The notes beneath the pieces were generated by a model, which was not told the origin of the DNA, did not search any database, and worked only from the letters and a program-made list of their open reading frames with translations. A DNA stretch of 64,000 bases from Clavelina lepadiformis (taxonomy: Eukaryota; Chordata; Ascidiacea; Aplousobranchia; Clavelinidae), in NCBI RefSeq assembly GCF_947623445.1, contig NC_135241.1:20958501-21022500 (forward strand), given 5' to 3'. Numbering within the stretch: position 1 is the first letter of the stretch; each line of letters starts with the position of its first letter. Of this stretch, positions 23,901 to 54,881 are shown piece by piece. A program made the position numbers and the translations under genes.

Positions 23901-26170
23901 CTGTTTTAACTTCGTTTCATGAATACCTGCACATTTCAAGACAGCGTCAGATACTACGTTGCTTGGAGTCGGGCTTTACCACAAGATGTGCTAAGCAGTG
24001 TATATGTGCTATATCCTTGTGTATGATTGGAATGACTTCTGATGCATTGGTCCGTGTTCTTCCCTCTATTTTGCTGCATCTATCACAGATGTCGGCCACT
24101 ACTCACTTGGCACCAGCTGTCCTGGAATTACTCTCCTCATTGTCACAACTGCCAACTTTGTATGCGAATTTCGTGGAAGACCAATACATGAGTGTATTTG
24201 CCATTGCCTTGCAACATGCAAATCCTGCCAAATATTCACTTTACATTGTGTCACTCGCGCACCATGTTATCAGTATGTGGTTCGTGAAATGCAGGCTTAG
24301 CTTTCGGCCAGACTTCATTCAATATATTGCTCGAAATTTACAAAATGTCAATCGTACGAAATCCAGTGACTCCCTTCAGCACAGTCTCATTGAATCCTGC
24401 ATTGATGTGATGGCACGTTATGCTTTTTCTGATAGTATGCCTGTGGCCAAACAACCCACACAAATGAAGTGTTTTGCTGTGAATGGTCAGAGTGCCACTT
24501 GGCTATTTGGCAATCGCATTATCACCATCAAGACCGGTAGATGCAACGATCATTCAACTATCCCAAACCAACTTCCTCAGATTGGAGATTTTCCCCCTTT
24601 AACAAACAACAGTAGTATTGCTTCTGACCCAGCATCTAACGATGCAAATGATCGAAAAATGTCCATTGAAGCACCTGCCAAGTTGCAGACTACCATGAAT
24701 AGTAATGTTGTGTCCATGAGACACCGTCATAGGTCGAGTGGCGCAGTGTTGAAGCGCAGCAGTGGTATTGAGTTTCCAGTAAGTGTGAAAGAACCTATTG
24801 TTGATTCCATACCAGAACAAAACATCACGGCAGACAGGGAAAGTGCTTTAACCCCAACAAAGGTAGGAACAAGCTGGGCTGAGATCAATATTAGGAGACC
24901 ATCTGGAAATACATCATTTTTGTTGTTTGGCCATCAGTTGAATTTGGTCTCTTCGCTTGCTGAAAGTGATATTAGCGATGTTGCTGCAGTATCCACTTTT
25001 CCTGCATCAGCATCGGACCTTCAAGTTTCTCAACAGGAGAAGATAAACGGACTCCCAGCTCTTTCCAAAAGTCTAGCAAAGGATGGAGACAGCGATGACA
25101 GTACAAAACAAGGTTCTCCTCTCACTCGTAATCGCAGCCATACAGTGTCGTCATCACAGGATTATGTCCAGGGAGCAGCTGCACGAGCCAGAGCGAAGAG
25201 CCGTGGCGTGGCCTCACCTAAAAGCCGGGGAAGGTTGTCAGGCCCGGTTGCATCTCCGATGAATGATCAGAGTAACCGAAACGATGCTAACCTCACTCCA
25301 GGGTTTGTATTTCTGCAAATGTTTCAAACTGCCATGGTGCCAGAGAGCTTGCAACGACCACTACTCCTGCCTAATACTGCTACGATAGATCGCGCTGTGC
25401 ACGTCCTTGACATGATCCCACCGTATGACACTTGGGGCACTGGAGTGGTGTACGTACGTCCTGGACAAGGCGAGGTTGGCCGGGACATTTTGTGCAATCA
25501 ACACGGTTCGAAAAGGTATCAGCAATTCCTGGACTCTTTGGGTTGTCTTGTTTCGCTTCCTGATTGTGACATGTCGCACACATACTTGGGCGGCTTGGAC
25601 CAAGGCGGTGACGATGGCCAGTTTACTTACGTGTGGCAGGAAAATATCATGCAGATGGTCTTCCACATTGCCACCCTGATGCCAAACCATGAAAATGAGG
25701 ATTCATCGAAAGTACGCCACATTGGAAACGACTATGTCACAGTGGTTTATGATGACAATGACTCGCCGCAATACGTTCCCGGTTCCATTTATCAAGGGCA
25801 ATTTTTGTCAGTTGAGATTATTATCACCCCTCTAGACCTCGGCTTCAACTCGGTTCGTGTCGTTTATCATAAGGAAGAGATCAAAGATATGATGCAGATA
25901 CGTGAAAAGAGAACAGTTTCTGATGAAAGACTTGGCTTGTTAGTTAGACAATTATCACTGCACGCCAACATGGCGGCTTCCGCCTATCTGCACCAGAAAA
26001 AACCCGAATATTTTATATCGAAACCGCTGTCACGCTTGAAGCAAATCAAACGCATTCGATCAAGAGCAATACAGGAACTGGCTTGTAAGAATGAATCCAG
26101 TGCGGCACGTTATAGCTCTCTAGATGAATCCTCTGCGTATCCGCTTGAAGAGTTTTCAGATTACGTTTAA
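20992..26170 (+). CDS. TSC2: Tuberin, TSC2 GTPase-activating protein
   Basis: Exons 20992-21480, 21973-22161 and 22298-26170, joined in frame, give 1516 residues (human 1807). Tuberin pairs with TSC1 and acts as the GAP for Rheb, switching off mTORC1. An alpha-solenoid fills the first two thirds; WKLMRNLLGTHLGH near residue 265 is almost identical to the vertebrate protein. The GAP domain is near the C-terminus, with YLGGLD, GEDGQFTY-like and HIATLMP motifs and the catalytic Asn in RHIGNDYV (residue 1370). An Akt-type site RNRSHTVS places Thr1175 where human Thr1462 lies, and an RHRHRSS stretch precedes it. The C-terminus EEFSDYV parallels human VEDFTEFV. A start at 21001 is equally possible. 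Almost all the protein lies in one 3873-bp exon, unlike the ~40 coding exons of vertebrates. Confidence 0.95.
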
Positions 26171-32439: not shown

Positions 32440-33960
32440 TCGTCTCGCGACGTCTAAAACTGCTTGTGCCCTGTAGTTAATGCAAGCACGCATTGGAGTT
32501 ATAAAACTTCAATTGAATTTGAGGGTTGGTTTATTGTCTATATGCCGGATTCCATACCATTGTGTTCGTCATAAACTGTTTAGTTATTATACTCAACCTC
32601 ACATCAGGCCTAAACGTCAAGGAAAATGCGGTCACAAGAAAATGCAAACAGAGCAAACTTAACTTAAATTTTTCCAATTTCTACTTAAGAAAAAAAATTT
32701 CTTAAACACAGACTTCCAGCTTGTAAAAACAGCAACAGGATATACGAAAGTCTTCAAACACGGTTTTGGAAAATACTTTTAGAATTAACGGGCGGCAGAA
32801 GATCCGTCCCAAGCGGCAAACAAAGTATATGTAATACAGTGTCATTTTACTTACGAACCAGTACATAGCGTTTTATTCATTTCTTTAAAATAAACTGCAA
32901 CACATATTATGGAATTCAGGGATGGAATTTTACAGGTTTGATTTGGCAACATTCAGCGGTTTTAACATGAGGTATATGAAAGTAACTCCTGCATTGGCAA
33001 ATATTCTTTCACCAGTTTTTCTCATCTTTGTACTCCGATAACTTCATTTCATAAGTTGACTTGAAGCCAATTTTTTCAGTAATGTGTTTCGACTCCAGTG
33101 CCGTAGTTACCGCCACCAATGAATCAAAGTCTTTGACATTGGAATTCAGTGATTTCATATCCCTGTTGATAAAACACAAAATTTAGTTTGCTTGCCTTGT
33201 GTGTGCCATCATAGTAATTCTAATATTGTTCAAGTGTTATGACGCAAGTATGTACTATATCATAGATAATAATTTTGCAAACACTTTATACAAAACTGTT
33301 TTATGCCTTGTCATCAATTGATGAGCAACACCTCTTCCAGAATAAGCTGCATTTACAGATAACTAATTGGCTTCCATAAAATTGTTGCCGCAAAATTTGT
33401 TCATCATTTCTTTTTGTAAAAAGAGGTTAAACTGAAAAACAATGCAAATGACGTTGCCCAATAACAGGGAACTACTATTTGTTTTTTCAAGAGAAGCTTT
33501 TTGGAAAAGAATTTAAAAATTTACGGTAATGCGATTCATGATAAAAAAAGACTTCAGGCAATTTCAACTTTGATTGAAAGAATGTAAGAATCTTTGGCAT
33601 TCTTCTTGGTATGTGCAATGATTTTTCAGTTTCTAGGATAAATGTTGTAGTTATAGTCTTCAATTTATTGGCGTCGTTAATTTTTTATTCATCTGGGTTA
33701 ACTTTATGATTCAAGCATACTTTAAAATTTTTATTATGAATTCTTAGTAGCATAAAGTCTAATTTTAATAAATCCGTTAAAATAAAAGTTCATAAACACA
33801 TTAAGCAAAAAGCTCAATAAAGATGCGTCACAAATGTCATTACTCATTAGTCATTACCCTTATAAGACATTGGGTCTTTTGTGAAAGAGACAGTAAATAT
33901 TTTTCCAAATCTATATCAGGTAAGAAATAACTGGAGCAGTTGATTTGAACTCTCATTTAA
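32440..33960 (-). pseudogene. GNAT copy B, pseudogene lacking exon 1
   Basis: On the minus strand, about 33960-33850 matches the 3' part of exon 2 of copies C and D, about 33432-33307 matches exon 3, and about 33170-32940 matches exon 4. The following 3' flank to 32440 also matches the flanks of C and D. Exon 1 and the start of exon 2 are missing. Exon 3 has TAG in place of the Trp codon of copy C (FMEANWLSV). Exon 4 has an extra A in the GATGAGAAAACTGG stretch that shifts the frame. It shares the FMEAN residues with copy C, so B and C are the closest pair. This is a dead host-gene copy. Confidence 0.85.
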
Positions 33961-34196: not shown

Positions 34197-34853
34197 GTTG
34201 GATTGAAAATTTACGTCAGACCGACGTCGCTCTCTCTGATTCGATCGAACTTCATGAGAAGGCGCTGACTGAGTACAGGAAACTCCATAGAAATCTCACC
34301 GTTATTTCCGACAGTGTAAAATTTGATTTTAATACAATTAAACTTACAACATATTCTACAAGGTAATTATAGTTGCAATTTTTATATCAACTGGTAGCGT
34401 ATTACATATTACATGCACGTTAATTAATCATCAGCTATTAATTGATTGCGACCAGTAGACTTTGTAACTGGACTACAGTAGAACCTCGGCAAGCTGATTT
34501 TCCACAAGACCGTTGTTAGATGGTCATGGTGGCGAGGTTGTCGCGTTAGTTAAACAGACTGCTATACACTGCTACATACGATGTTTAAGTAGTCGTGATA
34601 CTGGAGCGGTCGTGTCATCGGGTCGGTCGTTAACCGGGGTTCTATGCTGTACGTCCTACAGTTGGCAGCCGCCAGAGTCGTCATTGCCCGTTTTTCTCAC
34701 CCTCTTCTCTTTCTCTTCCAGGTCAAAGAAGTTACCCATGAGCACGGTGAAGCCCTGGACACGGTACAGGATGTTGTAAATCAGATCAATGAGTCTTTAA
34801 CCGAGGAGAAACAGCACATCAACGAGCACATAACCTATATGTATAAAACGTAA
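34197..34853 (+). CDS. Two 3' exons of an unrecognised coiled-coil protein
   Basis: Exon 34197-34315 has an acceptor TTTTTGTCTCAG and a donor AGT|GTAAAA. Exon 34722-34853 has an acceptor TTTCTCTTCCAG and stop TAA. They join in phase to about 83 residues rich in Glu, His and Leu with heptad spacing. One segment (EHGEALDTVQDVVNQI) is loosely like the SNARE core of syntaxins (EQGExLDxIxDxV), but no membrane anchor follows. The upstream exon is not visible; the sequence just before 34197 belongs to the duplicated GNAT flanks. The gene may therefore have been cut by the rearrangement, or its first exon may be far away. Confidence 0.45.
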
Positions 34854-35934: not shown

Positions 35935-36165
35935 CGTGAGTGAGGTACGTCGTCACAATAACATCACAATGCCGTCTCTTTTTGTGTGCATAGCTTTCAT
36001 AAGTCGTTCGATCTCCCACCAGCTCACCTGTCGCGATTTCCTCAGCTCATTATTTATCTTCAGACTTAAGTCACCTACACCTGCGCTTGGCACGCGTCCA
36101 TCGATGACGCTGCGTGATGTCACAATGGGCGCGAAAGTACAAATTATTTGCTCATGAACATGCAC
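35935..36165 (-). promoter_or_regulatory. ZicL promoter-like module 1 (orphan, reverse)
   Basis: Reverse-complement copy of the sequence just upstream of ZicL. In order on the minus strand it has a CGCCCATTGTGACATCACGC block, then CATCGATGGACGCGTGC, a forkhead-like GATAAATAATGAG and CTGGTGGGAGATCGA, then a TGTGATG/TTGTGACGACG block. No Zic reading frame follows on the left, so it is an orphan promoter or enhancer. Confidence 0.75.
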
Positions 36166-37537
36166 GTTCAAATCAAGCAACACGTAATATTGTAATCACG
36201 CGTTCATATCAATTTCACAAAAACAATATTTCAACCACGTGGGAAATAATGAGAAGTATACTTGAGTATATATATATCCAATATATTGGAATAAGTTCTT
36301 CGAAAGATTAAATAAGACTGTAATTGTGTTTATTTATGCATTGACAAGGTATTAAGGACTCGTTGCTTGGTGCAACATTTTAGGTCATTTTGAAATTTTT
36401 CGGGTGATGAATGCGTCCTTTTCTTCATACAGAAACGCGTCCATGTTTGAAAACAGGTTACAACGTCATCAGATTCAATTTTTAAATTTGAATTTTTACT
36501 CAAGTATTAATTAATTGTACGGTTATTTCCTGAAATTAGATGCGAAAAAATATTGAAATAAAAAAATCACACTGTTAAAACATAGCAATATTAAAACTAG
36601 GAGAGAATTAAAAGAAAAATAACACAACAAGAAACTTCATACTTCAACGCAATTTACCTGGTGAAATTTTGGCAGTTTAATATTTAATGTGTGGGATGGA
36701 ATATTTCGATAACTGAATTTCTAAAGAATTGGTCGCTGTTTGCTTATGGGTGATATTACGCTTTTTGAAAAGAAAAATTTGAAGCCAAGCAGATTTGTAT
36801 TCCGTAAATTTGATTTTCAAATCATATGAAAATAAAACGCTTTAAATCATTCCAAGAACTGAAGGCTGCTATAAATAATTTCTATAACTTCAGCAATCAG
36901 CTCAACTTGATATACATGACGTAATTACCGGGTTCAGAAGTTTTCATTTATCGTCATAATTGGCATGATTACTTGCTTCCCACATCTTACAGAACTTGGC
37001 TTGACAGTATAGAGGATTATCACTGCTGGTGGCTGCTCTATTTCTAAGTCACAACCGGTATTTTGCAGCTGGTGGAGTGAGCTTTTGTCTGCTCGTGCGA
37101 CCCAATGTGCCCCGTGTAAATCTGGCTTTGCCTCTTTTGTTTATGCTTTTAACGTAAAAACGTTTTTATATAAAAATTATTCAAAGTACATTTCCAATTT
37201 TGCGGTAAATCCATAACAATAACAATCTTTAGTTTAAATAGTTTGGTCGGGTAAAGAACTCTACACGTTTGTTATTGACAAACAAAAGACGAAGAGCGAA
37301 AAGATTCTTCTAACTTCTGGAAAATAAAGCCGTTGTTGTGATAAAACATTTGAAAGCCAAGGAATTGCTTATTAGTCATACAGAGTAAAATTTCTTGGCC
37401 GATTTTGCTTGAAATACTCACATTTTTCAGAATTCAGTTTTCAGAATACAAATATTATAATGTTATTTTGCCAAATGTTATGAAGATGTTCATTAATGGT
37501 GTTGCGGTACCAATTAGTCTCCAGTACATTCTCAGAT

Positions 37538-37760
37538 TTTTCGTCATAACAAAGTCGCACGGACCACATTTTTTACATTTTTTTTAACTTCCATTCGTCG
37601 ATCGCCTTCCCACCAGGTCACTTGCTGAGATTCATTTAATTCATTATTTACCTCGTTATCGGGCCTGCAGAGTCATTTACACCTGCGGTTGGCACGCGTC
37701 CACGACGACGTTGCGTGATATCACCATCGGAAGTCGAAAATATTTGCACATGCGGGACTG
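37538..37760 (-). promoter_or_regulatory. ZicL promoter-like module 2 (orphan, reverse)
   Basis: On the minus strand it carries GTGCAAATATTTTCGACTTC, GTGATATCACGCAACGTCGT, GTGGACGCGTGCC, the forkhead-like GGTAAATAATGA and CCTGGTGGGAAGGCGATCG in the same order as the real ZicL upstream region. No Zic coding sequence lies between here and module 1. Confidence 0.78.
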
Positions 37761-38111
37761 GATTGTGTACGAGACGTGCTGCCCTAAGTAAGGTACGAAG
37801 TTTAAATTTTCGTTCAACAATTTTTTTCGAAACTGTGACTGTGAAAGACCCGTTAATGCTCACCGTAAAAACATTGTCCATAAAATGATTAAACTAGAAT
37901 ATTTCAAGTCCTAGCTGATAAAGTCTCATACAAGCCCTTCTGGATAAAGAAACTTTAAAGAAATGAATTTCTACAAAGTATAAAATTTTTCCAACCATTG
38001 CAGGGTCATTAGACGATTTCATAATTCTAAGTCGATTTCAAAATTGTTTTACAAATGTTTCATTTAGGTAATATTGTCAGACCTTCCAAAAACCAGGCTT
38101 TACTCGGCTCT

Positions 38112-38215
38112 GGTCATTACGATGTAACAATAGGGTAATCACCAAAAGCGATAATAGAGTTTGAATGGACGAAGTTGTAAGACAACAAGGAAGCGAATAA
38201 TTACGGTATTTATGG
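38112..38215 (+). repeat. Direct repeat partner of 39609-39722
   Basis: The two segments share an ACAATAGG(G/C)TAAT core, an AGCGATAA motif, and AAGCGAATAATTAC followed by an ATTTATGG/ATTAATG tail in the same order. The spacing is about 1.5 kb. Together with the promoter-like modules this shows that the whole 36-40 kb interval was built by repeated duplication. Confidence 0.6.
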
Positions 38216-38960
38216 CGTCGTTTCTGTTTGGGAAATTTTAGGAAGCAATTATGGAATGGGGCATGAGATTTTTTTTTAACGTTAATTAATAATCGACAAA
38301 AGTTTTTCCATTATTTGAACAAACGTCTTATTAAAAATATAATCAAACACATTGCTGCACACTTTGAAAGATTATCTTTTTTGAACATAAATAAAAAATA
38401 TTTTTTTAATTCCCTTTAACATTTTTCTTCGTTAAATCAATTAATTAATTAATAAATTGAATCAAATTCGCAACAGCCGGTAACAAAGAAGCGATCACTA
38501 CACGTTCTGAAATATAACTACAATAAAAACAAAAATTCAACTTGCAGATCATATATACAGTATTACAACAAGAACATATTTCAAATTGAGCATTGATGAG
38601 CACCATCAGTTTCATTCAAATAAATTCTTTTTAACAAAACAATGAATTAGCTTGAACACGAAAACGGGTTGTTTGTCTGAAGCGTTTTCTTAAATATAGT
38701 ATGTTGTGAAAATCGTACAATTATCCAAAACACTTTCTCAATTGATTCCCAACTGGACCTGAATATTTTAAAGTTTGTTTCAGAAATCTTAATAAAAGAT
38801 CTAAGACAAAATTTTTAATTTCGATTAGTATTGTTGTTTAAACTGACTGAAATTTTCAAAAATATCCAAAATCGTTCAAATTAAAGAAACAAAAAGTTTT
38901 AAAATCTGCTTCGTGATATTTTGTACAGTGAAAATAATCCAGTGTAAAAATATATATTTA

Positions 38961-39190
38961 CAAGCCCAAACATTTTGAAATTTCGCGCCCATTGTGATAT
39001 CACGCAACGTCATCCATGACGCGTGCTGAGTGCCATTGCAGACTAGATAAAGAGCGGTTGAAGACAAATAATGAGTTGTGGAAATCGCGGCGCACATGAG
39101 CTCGTGGGAAAGCGATCGTTGGTCGGAAGTTTAAGAAACGATTGCGGGACGTCATTGTGATGACGACACAATGCAGAATCTTGTATAAAA
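38961..39190 (+). promoter_or_regulatory. ZicL promoter-like module 3 (orphan, forward)
   Basis: Same orientation as ZicL. It contains CGCGCCCATTGTGATATCAC, GCAACGTCATCCATGACGCG, ACAAATAATGAGTTG and CTCGTGGGAAAGCGATCG, then TTGTGATGACG and a TTGTATAAAAA stretch in the TATA position. No Zic frame follows before module 4, so it is a decayed promoter or a distal enhancer. Confidence 0.8.
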
Positions 39191-40184
39191 AAAAATTTAA
39201 ACTGTAAATTGAAAAACTGGTTTGTTTGAAGCAAAAGTCGAGGTGGACTTTACAATGCAGCAAAACCAACAAAGTAAGCTAATATCTAAACTCCTATTGT
39301 TTTTACATTTCTTTTCATATATTTTCCATTCTTGAGAACATTTCAACGTGAACAATTTTTGTTTTGATAAACGTGGAAATATTTTAAACTAAAAAGTATA
39401 TTTATTTTAAAAGCATATTTTAAAAGTACATAGAAAAAGCTGAAAACATTTCCGGTTACATTTGCAACGAAAACTAGAGTGTACCGAAATATTTTGAAAA
39501 GCTTTTCGTGCGTAAACTTTCTAAACAAAAAATCAAGTAAAAGTCAAATTTATTGTTTAGTGACCACCCCGCAATCAAATAAACAACCGTTATCTCGATG
39601 CCCGGATAACATTGATTGTGACGTGACAATAGGCTAATTGCCCATGTAGCGATAACTGTCTTCCGTGAAGCCAAATTTCGGAAGGTGTGAGACAAAGAAA
39701 AGCGAATAATTACACCATTAATGAAGATAATTAAACATTTCCATCGACATCAACTACCATTGAATGAGTTTAACGACGTTCAATGGAATTTGAAATAAAA
39801 TATTTTCTACGCACCGACCAAAAGAAACAGAGCAAAGATAAAAGTGAAAATTGTGTAAAAAGTATTTTATATTTTTTGCAAGTTGAATTGTAAGTTTAAT
39901 TGAAATTTTGTAAACTGTTTTGTCTGTTATTTCCAAACAAAAATACCGCATACAAGTGTATATTTTAACATTTTAATCACAAGACACAAGAATAAAAATT
40001 GGGCTTCATTTAGCTGGTAATGGGTAAAATAACATAGCTGATACCGAAATGTACTTTTGCGTTAGTTGCGTCTCATTTTTCAGTTTCGTTCATCTTTCAC
40101 CTGGTTTGAAAGAAACAAATGAGAATTAAAATTTTTAAGTTTATCTCAAAAACTGCTCAAAACATTGCCTTCCTTCGGTTAATC

Positions 40185-40440
40185 CTGCAAGTGCAAATAT
40201 TTTCAACTTTGACGTCCGTTGTGACATCATGCAACGTCATCGATGGACGCGTGCTGCGTCCTGGCATTATCTTCGTTGTAGACTCGATAACTAGCGACTG
40301 AAGGTAAATAATGAGTTTGGGATCGCAGCACGTGACCTGGTGGGAAAGCGATCTCCAACGATCGGAAGTTAAACAAACAAAGATTGATTGTGACGTTGTG
40401 ATAAGAAAAAAGCAAAGCCAGATCAGGCCAGGTATAAATG
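40185..40440 (+). promoter_or_regulatory. ZicL: ZicL proximal promoter (module 4)
   Basis: This is the version attached to a gene. It carries TGCAAATATTTTCAACTTT, GTTGTGACATCATGCAACGT, CATCGATGGACGCGTGC, the forkhead-like GGTAAATAATGAG, CACGTGACCTGGTGGGAAAG and GATTGTGACGTTGTGATAAG. These are followed by TATAAAT at 40433-40439. Known biology: ascidian ZicL responds to maternal and FoxD/FoxA inputs. The GTAAATAA sites fit a forkhead input but are not proven here. Confidence 0.8.
40433..40439 (+). promoter_or_regulatory. ZicL: TATA box of ZicL
   Basis: TATAAAT in GGCCAGGTATAAATGACC. It lies about 45 bases before the inferred 5' UTR exon end region and about 190 bases before the coding ATG. The position relative to the promoter module fits a core promoter. 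Confidence 0.65.
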
Positions 40441-40476: not shown

Positions 40477-40634
40477 ATGTTCGACAGGTAACACTTGAAG
40501 CAGAAGTAATCGGAAAAGTTTTTACAACCTGGTATGGGTTGAAAAGTCTGTCAGAGATATGTATCTTTCGGCATTTATATGATTAGATAATCTCGAAATT
40601 TTTTATCTGTTTTTATGTTTTCAGATTTTTATGA
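40477..40634 (+). other. Upstream ORF overlapping the ZicL start after splicing
   Basis: A 5' UTR intron is inferred from the donor CGACAG|GTAACA (after 40487) to the acceptor TTTTCAG (ending 40624). In the spliced leader an ATG at 40477 opens a six-codon ORF (MFDRFL). Its TGA overlaps the ZicL ATG as ATGA. This depends on the intron being real and on no spliced leader replacing the exon. Confidence 0.4.
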
Positions 40635-41915
40635 AAAGAATCAAGCCAATGCATTCAACAGCCTTTACCAACCGTCCGTGTGATCTTTATGACCAAAGTG
40701 TTAACCCGAACTCTCATAATTCATTCTCGTCTGCTCACCAACAATCGTTCAACTATCAGGTCCGTCCTTACCCGACATTCTTTGTACAACAACAGTCAAC
40801 CATACCACAACAGCAATCAATCGCCCTACAACAATCGTCAGTCTTTCTAGAAGAAGCTTTTTCCAACCAACTTTCGAAACCGACTCAGTGCGAATGGATG
40901 ATCCCGAGCCAGGAGGGCAGCAGAGTGTGCGGATTAATCTTCGAAGACATGCAAGCGTTTGTCCACCACATCACTTGTCATCACGTCGGAGGACCGGAGC
41001 AAAGCGACCACACTTGCTACTGGCGTAAATGCAAACGTCATTTGAAAGCTTTCAAGGCCAAGTACAAGCTGGTTAACCACATCCGAGTTCACACTGGAGA
41101 GAAACCGTCCAAATGCTCCTACTGCGGAAAGCGCTTTGGTCGTAGGGAAAATCTCAAAATCCATAAAAGAACTCACACAGGTAAGAAAATACTTTAGTCA
41201 AAGGGGCATTTCTGCCATTCTCTGCACTTTCATTAACGAAATACTAGCTTTCAAGTTTGCATTGTTCTATTTTAGGCGAAAAACCATTTCCATGCAAATA
41301 TCCTGGGTGTAATCGACTATTTGCCAACAGTTCTGATCGGAAAAAGCACAGCTACATGCACAATGAAGGAAAGTTATATGTTTGCAAGGTAAGCAACATT
41401 CCCAGTTTCCCTTTCATATGTTTTCATTTAAAGATTTTTTTGTAAACAAAGTCAGGTAAAATTTTAATTCTAAAATTTGATCATTGCCTTTTACGTTGAA
41501 GTACAAAGGATGTGATCGCAGCTACACCCACCCCAGTTCGTTACGTAAGCACATACGTATGCACAAAGCAAACGGTGACGTCATGAGTGGCGATAACTCG
41601 CCAATCATCTTTTATCGACCCCTGTCGACAGAAAGCGCAAGTCACTCAACTGCTGTTGAAGATCCTGACGTCACATCGATCCTCCAATTGCTCATGTCTT
41701 CTCCGGAACCGGCGCAATCAGGCATCGACTACGTGTCAAATGACGTCGGTCAAGAATTTGGGTTGAGCGAAATGCTGTCCGGCGAGGTGGATCCTCTATG
41801 GCCCCTGGAGGAGGGCTTCACTCAACAGGCAGATTTCTCCCAGGATTATTCTTCCGACTGCATTCAGCCACCCAACCAGTCATTTTCCTCATTTGACCCC
41901 ATATTCGGCATTTAA
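40631..41915 (+). CDS. ZicL: Zic-family zinc-finger transcription factor, ascidian ZicL (Zic-r.b)
   Basis: Coding exons 40631-41180, 41276-41388 and 41502-41915 join to 358 residues. ZicL is a nuclear activator that specifies notochord and nerve-cord fates in early ascidian embryos. It has five C2H2 fingers: a divergent first finger at 87-117 (CEWM...HH, with a longer C-C spacer, as in all Zic proteins), CYWRKC at 129-154, CSYC at 162-182, CKYPGC at 190-212 and CKYKGC at 220-242. The linkers HTGEKP are intact. A Gln-rich stretch lies near 53-69, and the C-terminal tail is acidic and Ser/Pro-rich. The introns after finger 3 and within finger 5 are GT-AG. The start is the first ATG after the leader acceptor at 40624. 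In Ciona this gene is multicopy; only one copy is in this window. Confidence 0.93.
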
Positions 41916-43600: not shown

Positions 43601-43659
43601 CGGCAGTGCGATCGTTGTAATGCCCTTGGACAAGGCAATAACCACGCTTGCTCCACTGA
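43601..43659 (+). mobile_element. SINE tail fragment
   Basis: GTTGTAATGCCCTTGGACAA and the following AGGCAATAACCACGCTTGCT match the body of the SINE at 58795-58990. The tRNA-like head is missing. It abuts the hAT MITE at 43668. Confidence 0.65.
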
Positions 43660-43667
43660 TCTATACT

Positions 43668-43948
43668 CAGGGTTGCCATCAGTCTCAACTCAAAAATAAG
43701 CACGACTAGGAAACGAAAGACAAATACCACCTTAAACAGTGCACAACAGGAGAAAGCAACCAATGTTGCTAAAAAAACGAGACACTATCTGCATGTTCTT
43801 AATTTTGGTATCTCTTTGGTACAAAATAATATACTAAAGGTGTCAAAATCCCCAAATTACGAAACTTTGACCTAAAAATAAGACGAAAATAAGGACGCAA
43901 GTGAAAATAAGGACATTTCTCAGAAAAAAGGACGGTATGGCAACCCTG
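43668..43948. mobile_element. hAT-type MITE with 8-bp target duplication
   Basis: The ends CAGGGTTGCCAT and ATGGCAACCCTG are inverted repeats bounding 281 bp. The flanking 8-mers are TCTATACT (43660-43667) and GCTATACT (43949-43956), seven of eight identical. Internal AAATAAGGAC motifs near the right end are common in this MITE type. It inserted at the end of a SINE fragment. Confidence 0.85.
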
Positions 43949-48180: not shown

Positions 48181-50435
48181 ATGCCAACTGAAACATCGGG
48201 TATTTACTGTCGACCTCTCACTGTTAAAGACAAAAATGACGTCATAGAATCTATAGCAAACAGTTTCTGCATGAGGAATCCCCTTTTGAAAAGTCTGAAA
48301 TTGTCAAAGAAAGAGAGATACGAGTATGCGACCTACGCTGCTGTAAGTACATTACAATCGATGTCTGGCAATAAGAAGAGAAATCGCTACGTACTGTAAC
48401 TGTTAATCTGGGTGGTCGGACGATTTAACCGCGGGCGAATCAACCCAGGACCTTTCAACCTACAACGATTCAACCCACGGACGATTCAACCCACGGACGA
48501 TTCAACTCACGGACGATTCAACCCGCTAACGATTCAACCCACGGACCTTCCAACCCACGGACCTTTCAACCCACGGACGATTCAACCTACGGACCTTTAA
48601 ACCCGCGGACGATTCAACCCACGGACCTTCCAACCCACGGACCTTTCAACCCACGGACGATTCAACCTACGGACCTTTAAACCCACTGACGATTTAACCC
48701 GTTTACAAAAACGTCTACGCAGTTTTTTACCAGGCGTTTGTTATCGTACTCTATAGCACAATTGAAATGCTTTCATGAGCTCATACAAGCTAGCCTACTG
48801 TGATAGAATACAATGACCACCCATTACATCTTGGATAGCCTAGCCATACTAGATTATGCAATGCCAGTACAGCAATATAATACACCTATACCACTGTTTA
48901 CAAGTCCACACTGCCACAAGAATACTCTGTTCGTCAGTCAGTTGATTCGTCCGTGGGTTGAATAGTCCGTGGTTTGAAAGGTCCGTAGGTTGGAAGGTCC
49001 TGGGTTGAAAGGTCCTGGGTTGAATCGTCCGTGGGTTGAATCATCCGTTGGTTGAATAGTCCGTGGTTTAAAAGGTCCGTGGATTGGAAGGTCCATGGGT
49101 GGAATCGTCCGCGGGTTGAATCGTCCTGGGTTGAAAGGTCCTGGGTTGAATCGCCCGCAGGTTGAATCGTCTGGATTTCAATCGTCCGTGGGTTGAATCG
49201 ACCTGGAACCGTTAATCTGCGTTAAGTTAGTTATATGAGATATTACACAAACAACTTCATGTTAATAATTAATTATTTCATAAAAAAACAAACAAACCAG
49301 GTAACCTATACTTAAAGCCAGTAGAATTACCGAAAGGTGAGTTTTCAACGCTCATATTTCGCAGATGTTTTTAGCCGACAACAAAAGCTTGGGAGCTTTC
49401 GATGATGACAATGATGACCAACTCTGCGGAGTTCAAATCAACTGCTCCAGTTATTTCGTACCTGACATAGATTTGGAAAAATATTTACTGTCTCTTTCAC
49501 AAAAGACCCAATATCTCATAAGGGTAATGACATTTGTGATGCATCTTTATTGAGCTGTTTGCTTTATGTGTTTATGAACTTTATTTTAACAGATTTACTA
49601 AAATTAGACTTTATACTACTAACAATTCATAATAGAAATCTTAAAGTATGCTTGAATCCTAAAGTTATCCCAGATGAATAAACAATTAACGACGCCAATA
49701 AATTGAAGACTATAACTACAACATTTATCCCAGAAATTGAGAAACCATTGCACAAACCAAGAAGAATGTCAAGAATTTTTACATTCTTTCAATCAAAGTT
49801 CAAAATGCCTGAAGTTTTTTTTTATCATGAATCGCATTTCCGTAAATTATTAAAATCTTTTCCAAAAAGCTTCTCTTGAAAAAGCAAAATTTAGTTCCCT
49901 GTAATTGGGCAACGTCAATTGCGTTGTTTTTCAGTTCGACCTCTTTTTACAAAAAGAAATGATGAACAAATTTTGCGGCAACAATTTTATGGAAGCCAAT
50001 TGGTTATCTGTGAATGCAGGTTATTCTGGAAGAGGAGTTGCTCATCAATTGATGACAAGGCATAAAACGGTTTTGTATAAAGTGTTTGCAAAATTATTAT
50101 CTTTGGTATAGTGTATATTTGCGTCATAACACTTAAGTAATAATAAAATTACTATGATGGCACACACAAGCCAAGCAAACTAAATTTTGTGTTTTATCAA
50201 CAGAGATATGAAATCACTGACTACCAATGCCAGTGAGTTTGATTCATTGGTGGCGGTAACAACGGCACCGGAGTCGAAACACATTGCTGAAAAAATTGGC
50301 TTCAAAGCAACGTATGAAATGAAGATGTCTGAGTACAAAGATGAGAAAACTGGTGAAAGAATATTTGCCAATGCAGGAGTTCCTTTCATGTACTTCTTCT
50401 TTAAACCGCTGAATGTTGCCAAATCAAACCTGTAA
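48181..50435 (+). CDS. GNAT acetyltransferase copy C, possibly decaying
   Basis: Exons 48181-48342, 49365-49523, 49935-50059 and 50204-50435 would encode 225 residues homologous to copy A. The first two introns have normal GT donors, and all three acceptors are normal. The exon 3 donor is AAG|GCATAA instead of GTGAGA in copy A. A GC donor can work, but this one has a poor consensus. Without splicing, translation stops about 17 codons later. The coenzyme-A loop (SVNAGYSGRGVAHQL) and the TAPESKHIAEKIGF segment are intact. Intron 1 carries the 800-bp foldback element. Compared with A, exon 3 has one extra codon and FMEANW in place of YIAGYW. Function is uncertain; a gene in early decay is as likely as a working gene. 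Confidence 0.65.
48411..49210. mobile_element. 800-bp foldback-type element with inverted minisatellite arms
   Basis: The left arm (48411-48706) is a tandem array of a 16-bp unit such as ACGGACGATTCAACCC with variants ending CTTTCAACCC or CTTCCAACCC. The right arm (about 48951-49210) carries the same unit in reverse complement. A 240-bp unique spacer separates them. The outer ends GGTGGTCGGACGATTTAACC and GGTTCCAGGTCGATTCAACC (reverse complement of the right) are alike. The target duplication is GTTAATCTG (48402-48410 and 49211-49219). GNAT copies A and D have the uninterrupted site. No transposase is present, so mobility needs outside help. Confidence 0.82.
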
Positions 50436-50439
50436 AATT

Positions 50440-50810
50440 TCATCCCTGAATTCCATAATATGTGTTGCAGTTTATTTTAAAGAAATGAATACAACGCTAT
50501 GTGTACTAGTAAGTAAAGTGACACTGTATTGCATATAGGCTACGTTTGCCGCTTGGGACGAATTGTAAAACTGGTTCCTGTCAATTCTAAAAAAAATTTC
50601 CCAAACCGTGTTTGAAGACTTTCGTATTTCCTGTTGCTGTTTTTACAAGCTGGAATTTTGTGTTTAAGAAAAATTTGTTTCTGAAGTAGAAGTTGGAAAG
50701 TTTCAAGTTAAATTTGCTTTGTTTGCATTTTCTTGTAACCAAATGTAACCCCATTTTCCTTCACGTTTAGGCTAGATGTGAGATTGAGTATAATTGCTGC
50801 AAGTAAACAA
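50440..50810 (+). repeat. GNAT 3' flank shared by copies B, C and D
   Basis: Matches 32930-32440 on the minus strand (copy B) and, in part, 54480-54715 (copy D). Shared motifs are ACACTGTTTTGCATAT-like sequence, GCCGCTTGGGACGAATT, a TTTGAAGACTTTCGTAT stretch and TGAGATTGAGTATAATT. Copy D has lost the middle part. Confidence 0.8.
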
Positions 50811-53020: not shown

Positions 53021-54461
53021 ATGCCTACTGACAAATCCGGTATTTACTATCGCCTTCTCACTATTAATGACAAAAATGATGTCATAAAATCTATAGCAAA
53101 TAATTTCTGCATAAGAGATCCCCTTTGCAAAAGTTTGATACTTTCGGAGAAAGACAGATACGAGTATGCGACCTACGCTGCTGTAAGTACAGCACAATGA
53201 GGAGGGAAATCGCTACATACTCTAACTTTTAACCTGCGTTAAGTTAGCTACATGTGACATTACACAAACAATTTCACGTTAATAATTATTTCATAAAAAA
53301 ACAAACAGATACCGGGTTACTTATACTCAAAGCCAGTACAATTACCAAAAGATAAGTTTTCAACGCTCTTATTCCGCAGATGTTTTTAACCGACAACAAA
53401 AGCTTGGGAGCTTTCGATGGTGACAATGATGACCAACTCTGCGGAGTTCAAATCAACTCCTCCAGTTATTTCGTACCTGACATAGATTTGGAAAAATATT
53501 TACAGTCTGTTTCACAAAAGACCCAAAATCTCATAAGGGTAATAACATTTGTGATGCATCTTTATTGAGCTGTTTGCTTTATGTGTTTATGAACTTTATT
53601 TTAATAAATTTACTAAAATTAGACTTTATACTACTAACAATTCATAATAGAAATCTTAAAGATGCTTGAATCATAAAGTTAACCCAGATGAATAAACAAT
53701 TAACGACGCCAATAAATTGAAGACTATAACTAAAACATTTATCCCAGAAATTGAGAAACCATTGCACAAACTAAGAAGAATATCAAGAATTTTTACATTC
53801 TTTCAATCAAAGTTGAAATTGCCTGAATTTTTTTTTATCATGAATCGCATTTTCGTAAATTATTAAATTCTTTTCCAAAAAACTTGTATTGTAAAAGCAA
53901 AATGTAGTTCCATGTTATTGGGCAACGTCATTTGCGTTGTTTTTCAGTTCGACCACTTTTTACAAAAAGAAATGATGAACAAATTTTGCGGCAACAATTA
54001 CATAGGAGGATATTGGATATCTGTGAATGCAGGTTATTCTGGAAGAGGTGTCGGTCATCAATTGGTGATAAGGAAAAAAACAGTTTTGTATAAAGTGTTG
54101 AAAAGTTATTTTCATTGATGTAAAATTATTATCTTTGATATAGTGTATATTTGCGTCATAACACTTAAACAATAATAAAATCACCATAACACACCGACCA
54201 AGCAAACTAAATTTTATTTTTATTAACAGGTGTATGAAGTGGCTCACTACCAATTTCAGAGACTTTGATTCATTGGTGGCGGTCACTACGGCACCGGAGT
54301 CGAAACACATTACTGAAAAAATTGGCTTCAAGTCAACCTATGAAATGAAGATGTCTGAGTACAAAGATGAGAAAACTGGTGAAAGAATATTTGCCAATGC
54401 AGGAGTTCCTTTCGTGTATCTCATGGTTAAACTGCGGAACGTAACCAAATCAAACCTGTAG
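53021..54461 (+). CDS. GNAT acetyltransferase copy D, exon 3 donor lost
   Basis: Exons 53021-53182, 53380-53538, 53948-54072 and 54230-54461 would encode 225 residues. Exons 1 and 2 have GT donors (GTAAGT and GTAATA). After exon 3 the sequence is ATAAG|GAAAAA, so no GT or GC donor is present at the conserved junction, while the exon 4 acceptor TTAACAG is intact. Reading through the intron meets a stop, giving a protein without the C-terminal strands. The coding sequence otherwise looks intact: SVNAGYSGRGVGHQL for acetyl-CoA and TAPESKHITEKIGF. Intron 2 is almost identical to that of copy C, which suggests recent duplication or gene conversion. It is either a recent pseudogene or it uses a cryptic donor. 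Confidence 0.65.
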
Positions 54462-54881
54462 AATTTCATCCCTGAGATATCTTCTGTGTTGCGGTTCGTT
54501 TAAAAGAAATGAATACAACGTTATGTTACGAGGTCATATGTAAAATGACACTGTTTTGCATATACGCTATTTGCCGCTTAGGCCTGATATGAGATTGAGT
54601 ATAATTAAGCAGTTTATGACGAACACCATGGTATGTCATCCGGCATATAGACAATAAACCAATCCTCAAATTCAATTGAAGTTTTGTAACTCCAATGCGT
54701 GTTTGCATTAAGGAGGCGTCAAATACTTAAAACTAAGGTCTCTAAGATTTTGTTGGACGTCTTACGTAGAGCTATAAAAAACCTGTTTAGACCAATCAGA
54801 AAGCAGTATGGTTGGGGTTGTTTTCTTGCCTGGGAATTTTAGGTAATTCCCAGTCAGGAGTCGCTGCAGCTGAGGTACAGG

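Follow-up and report, generated by a model that had tools for sequence, protein, structure and literature searches.

This analysis concerns a Zic gene and a set of regulatory modules upstream of it in the genome of the ascidian Clavelina lepadiformis (NCBI RefSeq assembly GCF_947623445.1). They lie on chromosome 2 (C2) in a stretch of 64,000 nucleotides that we call the window (contig NC_135241.1, positions 20,958,501 to 21,022,500 of the forward strand), and all coordinates below are window positions unless another chromosome is named. The gene, which we take to be of the ZicL/Zic-r.b type and call ZicL, is on the + strand. By translation, with splice sites placed by eye, it consists of a first coding exon at 40631..41180, holding the amino-terminal part and the first fingers, a coding exon at 41276..41388, and a last coding exon with the stop at 41502..41915. 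The protein of 358 amino acids carries the Pfam domain zf_ZIC (PF18366) at 32.8 bits, over a cut-off of 26.3, together with zf-C2H2, as a Zic protein does, and it matches 23 PDB sequences, including the human-type ZIC 3 structures 2rpc and 2ej4.

Upstream of the gene are four modules of about 230 bp, numbered M1 to M4 and named here by class. They are module c (M1) at 35935..36165 (-), module b (M2) at 37538..37760 (-), module a (M3) at 38961..39190 (+), which is oriented like the surviving gene, and the promoter module P_A (M4) of ZicL at 40185..40440 (+), with a TATA box at 40433-40439. Modules a, b and c have no gene of their own, and we refer to them as orphans. An earlier note on this DNA had reported the four in the order (-)(-)(+)(+), and they are indeed found at the coordinates and strands it gave. 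Pairwise local alignment yields scores of 49-88 against shuffled means of 12-13 (z 18-34), and for none of the 6 pairs does any dinucleotide shuffle score as high (0/1000). That only M4 stands upstream of a Zic frame also holds, the sole Zic match in the window (tblastn, E <= 0.01) being the gene downstream of it. The further claim, that the same ordered motifs recur in all four, is true in part. Exact copies of GTGAYATCAYGC and AAATAATGA are present in 4/4, and GGACGCGTGC is exact in three, with TGACGCGTGC in its place in M3; GGTGGGAAAGCGATC is exact in M4 alone, with one mismatch each in M2 and M3 and three in M1.

The genome searched comprises 209 Mb in 95 contigs. All module matches listed (the best 40 of 56 scored candidates for M4, 33/33 for M3, 37/37 for M2, and the best 40 of 41 for M1) fall in the window or on chromosome 9 (C9) at 13.79-15.02 Mb, beside Zic or Zic-derived genes, which speaks against a dispersed repeat. 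C9 holds ten divergent Zic gene pairs at 13.79-14.98 Mb, in ten 10-kb stretches (L009-L018). Each of these units has five modules between its two genes, in the order P_A(-), a(-), b(+), c(+), P_B(+), the entire L018 unit being inverted. On the outer side of each P there is Zic coding sequence, partly broken, with gene A next to a and gene B next to c. Modules a, b and c are without a gene in 10/10 C9 units, as they are in the window, which makes eleven units in all.

The window is the reverse complement of a C9-type unit minus its B end, that is, c(-) b(-) a(+) P_A(+). Its c, b and a are orthologous to those of 10/10 C9 units at 87-91%, 74-85% and 88-91% identity, and P_A has 20 further copies on C9 at 89-95%. 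Going by this correspondence, a family of five ~230-bp regulatory modules lies between divergent genes A and B, the window has four of its members, and their mirror order is the symmetry of the divergent gene pair, the modules pointing outward, each to its own side, with c pointing to a gene B that the window has lost.

A tree of 59 modules places the orphans in classes of their own. The clade values are 100/100 for a, 100/99 for b, 99/93 for c joined with T0, a c-like module from a separate cluster on C9 described below, and 99/91 for the P modules joined with T1-T4 of the same cluster; c without T0 scores 61/58 and is not supported as a clade. The P_A and P_B modules of C9 are intermixed. 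Since a, b and c (with T0) separate in this way, the orphans are, by the tree, old paralogues of the promoter module that predate the copying of the units. Gene-attached modules and orphans differ in the TATA box, which stands at one fixed offset in 25/25 gene-attached modules (11 P_A, 10 P_B, 4 T) and is found at a conserved offset in 0/10 a modules of C9, 0/11 b and 0/11 c, so that by this mark the orphans do not look like TATA promoters. A lone TATA in the window's a is shared with 0/10 a modules of C9.

The motif array upstream of the TATA position is largely common property. In the cross-class alignment, all classes have a CAAATA-TTT block, a TGAYATCAYGCAACGTCATCGAT-like sequence, GACGCGTGC-, GTAAATAATGA- and GGTGGGAA-like blocks, and a GTGA close to the end. 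These shared blocks may be CRE-like, Hes-like, Fox-like and Su(H)-like. A forkhead-type RYAAAYA is present in 21/21 P, 10/11 a, 11/11 b and 11/11 c modules, and GATAA in 21/21 P, 11/11 a and 11/11 b. On the evidence of these alignments, then, the orphans have kept most of the upstream motif array without a conserved TATA box. Motif content shared with the promoter is what one expects of a shadow enhancer, and here the sharing is partial, some promoter sites being absent. Fox factors are probable inputs of the orphans, most copies having a GTAAATA-type site, and so is Gata, for which a and b have GATAA.

The modules are accompanied by a second element, D, a similarity of ~150 bp found by sliding profiles over the intergenic region. 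In the window, D1 (36932..37082, -) is the upstream partner of c at a distance of 766 bp (E=4.7e-11 to D3 and 0.0039 to D2). D2 (38091..38237, +) is the upstream partner of a, 723 bp away (E=5.1e-07 to D3 and 0.00018 to D1), and D3 (39581..39745, +) that of P_A, 439 bp away (E=3.6e-06 to D2 and 8.7e-06 to D1). No D was found for module b, and a lone further match in the window at 25923-25962 (E=0.036) is probably chance. On C9 each of P_A, a, c and P_B has a D upstream of it in 10/10 units, four per unit; the profile was built with the P_A, a and c copies (including D1), whose matches are therefore by construction, and the independent matches, from copies not in the profile, are those of P_B at 42-50 bits and of the T cluster at 41-57 bits. 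In that cluster T1-T4 have one D each, 445-576 bp upstream, and a fifth lies beside T0. Modules and D elements, and nothing else, are still recognizable as mutual copies across the array at E <= 0.05. Because D lies upstream of a and c as it does of the promoters, these two modules resemble duplicates of complete ZicL upstream regions, a point in favour of their descent from gene copies that have since disappeared. Zic coding relics between the modules were found neither in the window and C9 units by tblastn (E <= 0.01) nor, in the window only, by sliding profiles; after such divergence, their absence is weak evidence.

To gauge constraint, differences between the window and the C9 consensus were counted over the module cores, with the DNA between modules as the reference. 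The reference differs at 520/3815 positions (13.6%), and it behaves as neutral, given that 15/104 fourfold sites of the Zic gene (14.4%) differ. The counts are 14/184 for c (p=0.009), 13/184 for a (p=0.005) and 13/196 for P_A (6.6%, p=0.002). Adding the 14/155 of b, the three orphan cores give 41/523 (7.8%), with p=6.5e-5 against the intermodule DNA. As a group, the a, b and c cores have a divergence of roughly half to two thirds of the neutral level, similar to that of the P_A core, and codon positions 1+2 of the Zic gene (86/718) differ more than the modules do. As a set, then, the three cores do not show the neutral decay of dead promoters, and they show constraint away from the primary element, as shadow enhancers should.

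Comparison with overlapping intermodule stretches of the same length goes the same way for three of the modules: a mean divergence as low is found in 0/2765 stretches for c, 0/2763 for a and 0/2678 for P, and by consensus, too, 0/2678 are as conserved as P. Indels per bp amount to 0.009 in c, 0.007 in a and 0.011 in P against 0.012-0.017 between modules. When the columns are restricted to those on which the other three classes agree, a, b and c together differ at 24/341 (7.0%, p=1.6e-4 against intermodule DNA), and the other module columns, at 35/333, are not different from intermodule DNA (p=0.11). An earlier version of this test (5/148 vs 14/82 for a) was set aside as biased, its columns having been picked with the tested class's own C9 consensus. 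Nor is there extra degradation of a or b in the window, whose mismatches number 24 and 25 against 24-28 and 28-33 in the ten C9 orthologues. Between five C9 units with a broken gene B and five with an intact one, scored by reading frames and with L013 counted as broken just for a changed start codon, b and c show no clear difference, and a is slightly more mismatched in the broken-B units (25-28 vs 24-25).

What is missing from the window can be seen at a junction at 34825..34831, where ~4.55 kb, comprising the D of P_B, P_B itself and gene B, are absent relative to unit 9 of C9. Window and units align across the intergenic region in segments that are 75-88% identical, up to window 34831, which aligns to C9:14401393 in unit 9. 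Window 34825 aligns to C9:14405943, and from there downward the window matches C9:14405943-14406592 at 83%. A deletion in the window is favoured over an insertion on C9.

The age of gene B bears on this, and the evidence comes from the tandem cluster T1-T4 at 15.01 Mb of C9, in which T0 stands ahead of P-like modules in the way that c stands ahead of P_B. In the T1 protein, the carboxy-terminal half (residues 156-279) has matches in 10/10 B genes, and A genes match it solely within one long gapped match (L012_A). The amino-terminal part of T1, in contrast, is closer to A genes (100-135 bits) than to B genes (65-81; L017_B 119), which counts against an old gene B. In the module tree the 21 P modules form a clade (93/88) that leaves out the T promoters, so that gene B would seem to predate the C2/C9 split, as far as can be inferred given gene conversion.

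Three of the tandem genes behind ZicL-type promoter modules (L019:3950-4822, L019:7675-8544 and L020:1398-2174, at C9 15.012-15.020 Mb) have open frames of 290, 289 and 258 amino acids, with Zic-like amino-terminal and gene-B-like carboxy-terminal parts and no zinc fingers. No Pfam domain was found in the two of the three that were scanned. These genes, each under a ZicL promoter, may encode derivatives of Zic that cannot bind DNA. The fourth copy, T4, has kept its promoter module ahead of a degenerate gene.

The earlier note had left open whether the orphans are promoters of deleted ZicL copies or retained shadow enhancers for the surviving gene, and each half of that alternative has something in it. 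The window does seem to have lost a Zic copy, but the promoter of that gene, P_B, is itself absent, and M1 and M2 are the distal modules c and b; the shared D elements speak for an earlier derivation of a and c from the whole upstream regions of lost copies. Shadow enhancers seem nevertheless to be favoured over dead promoters by the orphan state in 10/10 C9 units, the lack of a TATA box and the slower divergence of the set. If the orphans were dead promoters, they would be functionless relics of the promoters of deleted copies, alike only through duplication of the unit. Gene B and its promoter are gone from the window, D beside a and c fits copies of full upstream regions, T4 demonstrates a promoter module kept before a degenerate gene, c has decayed a little further in the window than on C9, and b alone lacks significant constraint. 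We still regard this as unlikely. The orphan state in all eleven units and the separate old classes mean that the orphans are no leftovers of recent loss, the cores diverge by 7-9% against 13.6% between modules, and the tblastn and profile searches described above brought up no Zic coding relic between them.

It is very improbable, in our estimate, that a, b and c are alternative promoters, TATA-less start sites for extra first exons or non-coding RNAs of the flanking Zic genes. Module a faces the surviving gene and is followed by a stretch resembling a short first exon (ATGCARCAAAACCAAC, then GT), whose ATG is kept in 11/11 copies and GT in 8/11. Against this, the donor-like GT is lost in 3/10 C9 copies, the DNA between a and D3 evolves at the neutral rate (48/305), b and c face away from gene A, and none of the three has a conserved TATA. 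Least probable of all, to our mind, is that gene conversion between units, rather than selection for function, maintains the similarity of the modules. The intermixing of C9 P_A and P_B in the tree and the hybrid of one gene B with gene A show where the idea comes from, but a, b and c (with T0) form separate clades and have not been converted by one another or by P, and any conversion tracts exchanged by C2 and C9 would need to end at the module edges, with the neighbouring DNA staying at the neutral 13.6%.

The enhancer reading, which we consider fairly probable, is that the orphans are duplicated control regions whose genes were lost and which are kept as extra (shadow) enhancers, their function being inferred from sequence. 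Several results weigh against it. The motif sharing is incomplete: GATAA is absent from 10/11 c modules (present in 1/11), the promoter site AAACAAA is in 21/21 P but in 1/11 a, 3/11 b and 0/11 c, and the orphan consensus lacks the promoter's second GATA site. Module b taken alone is not significantly conserved (p=0.058); 60/2871 intermodule stretches equal it by mean and 287 by consensus, and its indel rate of 0.019 per bp is above that of the intermodule DNA. By consensus, stretches equally conserved exist also for c (21/2765) and a (5/2763), and within modules the contrast of shared with other columns is weak (p=0.07). Window c, with 19 mismatches against 12-17 in the ten C9 copies, may have begun to decay once gene B was lost. 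Present constraint on D is unsupported, with 12-15% difference between window and C9, the neutral level. Gene conversion within C9 is likely, to judge from the hybrid gene B in L017, and the far side of the junction is matched by unit 9 alone (1 C9 match among 10 scored candidates). The constraint as a whole appears moderate and comes from one genome.

Some further observations on the genes and their surroundings may be added. In the C9 first coding exons, read as frames, 5/10 B genes and 1/10 A genes look broken, and gene B of L017 looks like a hybrid with gene A. Three gene-A-like fragments on C9 (L021, L022 and L023, at 13.939, 14.273 and 14.337 Mb) have finger-coding sequence and the gene-A downstream flank, with no promoter or orphan module within the surrounding 10 kb, the reverse of the window orphans. 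A second Zic-like match lies at C3:14.87 Mb. In the window, a short ATG frame stands at 40479-40490, 5' of the Zic start; its ATG reads GTG in 9/10 C9 A copies. A first exon there looks doubtful, its donor GT being present in 0/10 C9 copies, and it is not counted as part of the gene. Beside the ZicL unit, 32900-33952 recurs inverted at 49429-50465 (91%) and 53444-54475 (85%) as a local repeat, and 43653-43900 lies within a dispersed repeat with at least 28 copies elsewhere at 89-94% (best 40 of 711 candidates).

The locus invites comparison with Ciona robusta, for which six copies of Zic-r.b (ZicL) within 18 kb of chromosome 6 are reported, the same source stating that why such key genes are multicopy is unknown (PMC6836712). 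Zic-r.b has an early role in ascidian mesoderm and neural specification (PMC5453608, PMC10530022). In Ciona it is described as requiring two upstream Fox sites (PMC5453608) and as having two Gata.a sites for B6.4 expression (PMC10530022), and Ci-ZicL-B is listed with two enhancer activities (PMC3580780). Clavelina resembles this in its clustered Zic copies, and the upstream Fox and Gata inputs are known for Ciona; the orphans would hold part of these Ciona-type inputs. It departs from the six-copy locus in having ten divergent pairs and derivatives across 1.2 Mb of chromosome 9, and a single copy on chromosome 2. In Clavelina, three orphan modules separate the two genes of every pair. Searches of the open-access PMC literature brought up no description of the Clavelina cluster and no statement of how many Zic copies this genus has.

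Shadow or secondary enhancers (Hong et al. 2008, cited in PMC3580780) are a natural parallel, being constrained extra upstream elements with motif content like that of the primary one, and an ascidian case is given by the proximal and distal enhancers of Brachyury (PMC7846015). Unlike those, the Clavelina orphans can be recognized as paralogues of the promoter-proximal module itself and occur as oriented copies. Evolutionary conversion between promoters and enhancers has been treated in mammals, where most of the repurposing events are described as going from enhancer to promoter (Carelli et al. 2018, PMC6172195). In Clavelina, by contrast, it is the duplicated promoters of one gene family that appear to have turned into enhancers, with the same state at eleven loci.

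The course of events under the enhancer reading would be as follows. ZicL upstream regions would have been duplicated in a divergent array, and three of them would have lost gene and TATA box while keeping most of the motif array under selection. The complete five-module hub would then have been copied to eleven loci. The orphans would act as extra enhancers for the flanking Zic promoters and, in the window, for the single remaining gene A. More tentatively, and as something we would put a little below an even chance, the eleven loci may share one five-part hub in which gene-less, TATA-less copies of the ZicL promoter became enhancers, one of the eleven hubs having outlived a gene. If that is true, the cluster would offer a natural series in which the change from promoter to enhancer could be followed at a gene central to chordate patterning. 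The hub exists in eleven natural replicates, whose genes are variously in place, broken or absent, and these would make promoter-to-enhancer conversion and enhancer redundancy directly testable.

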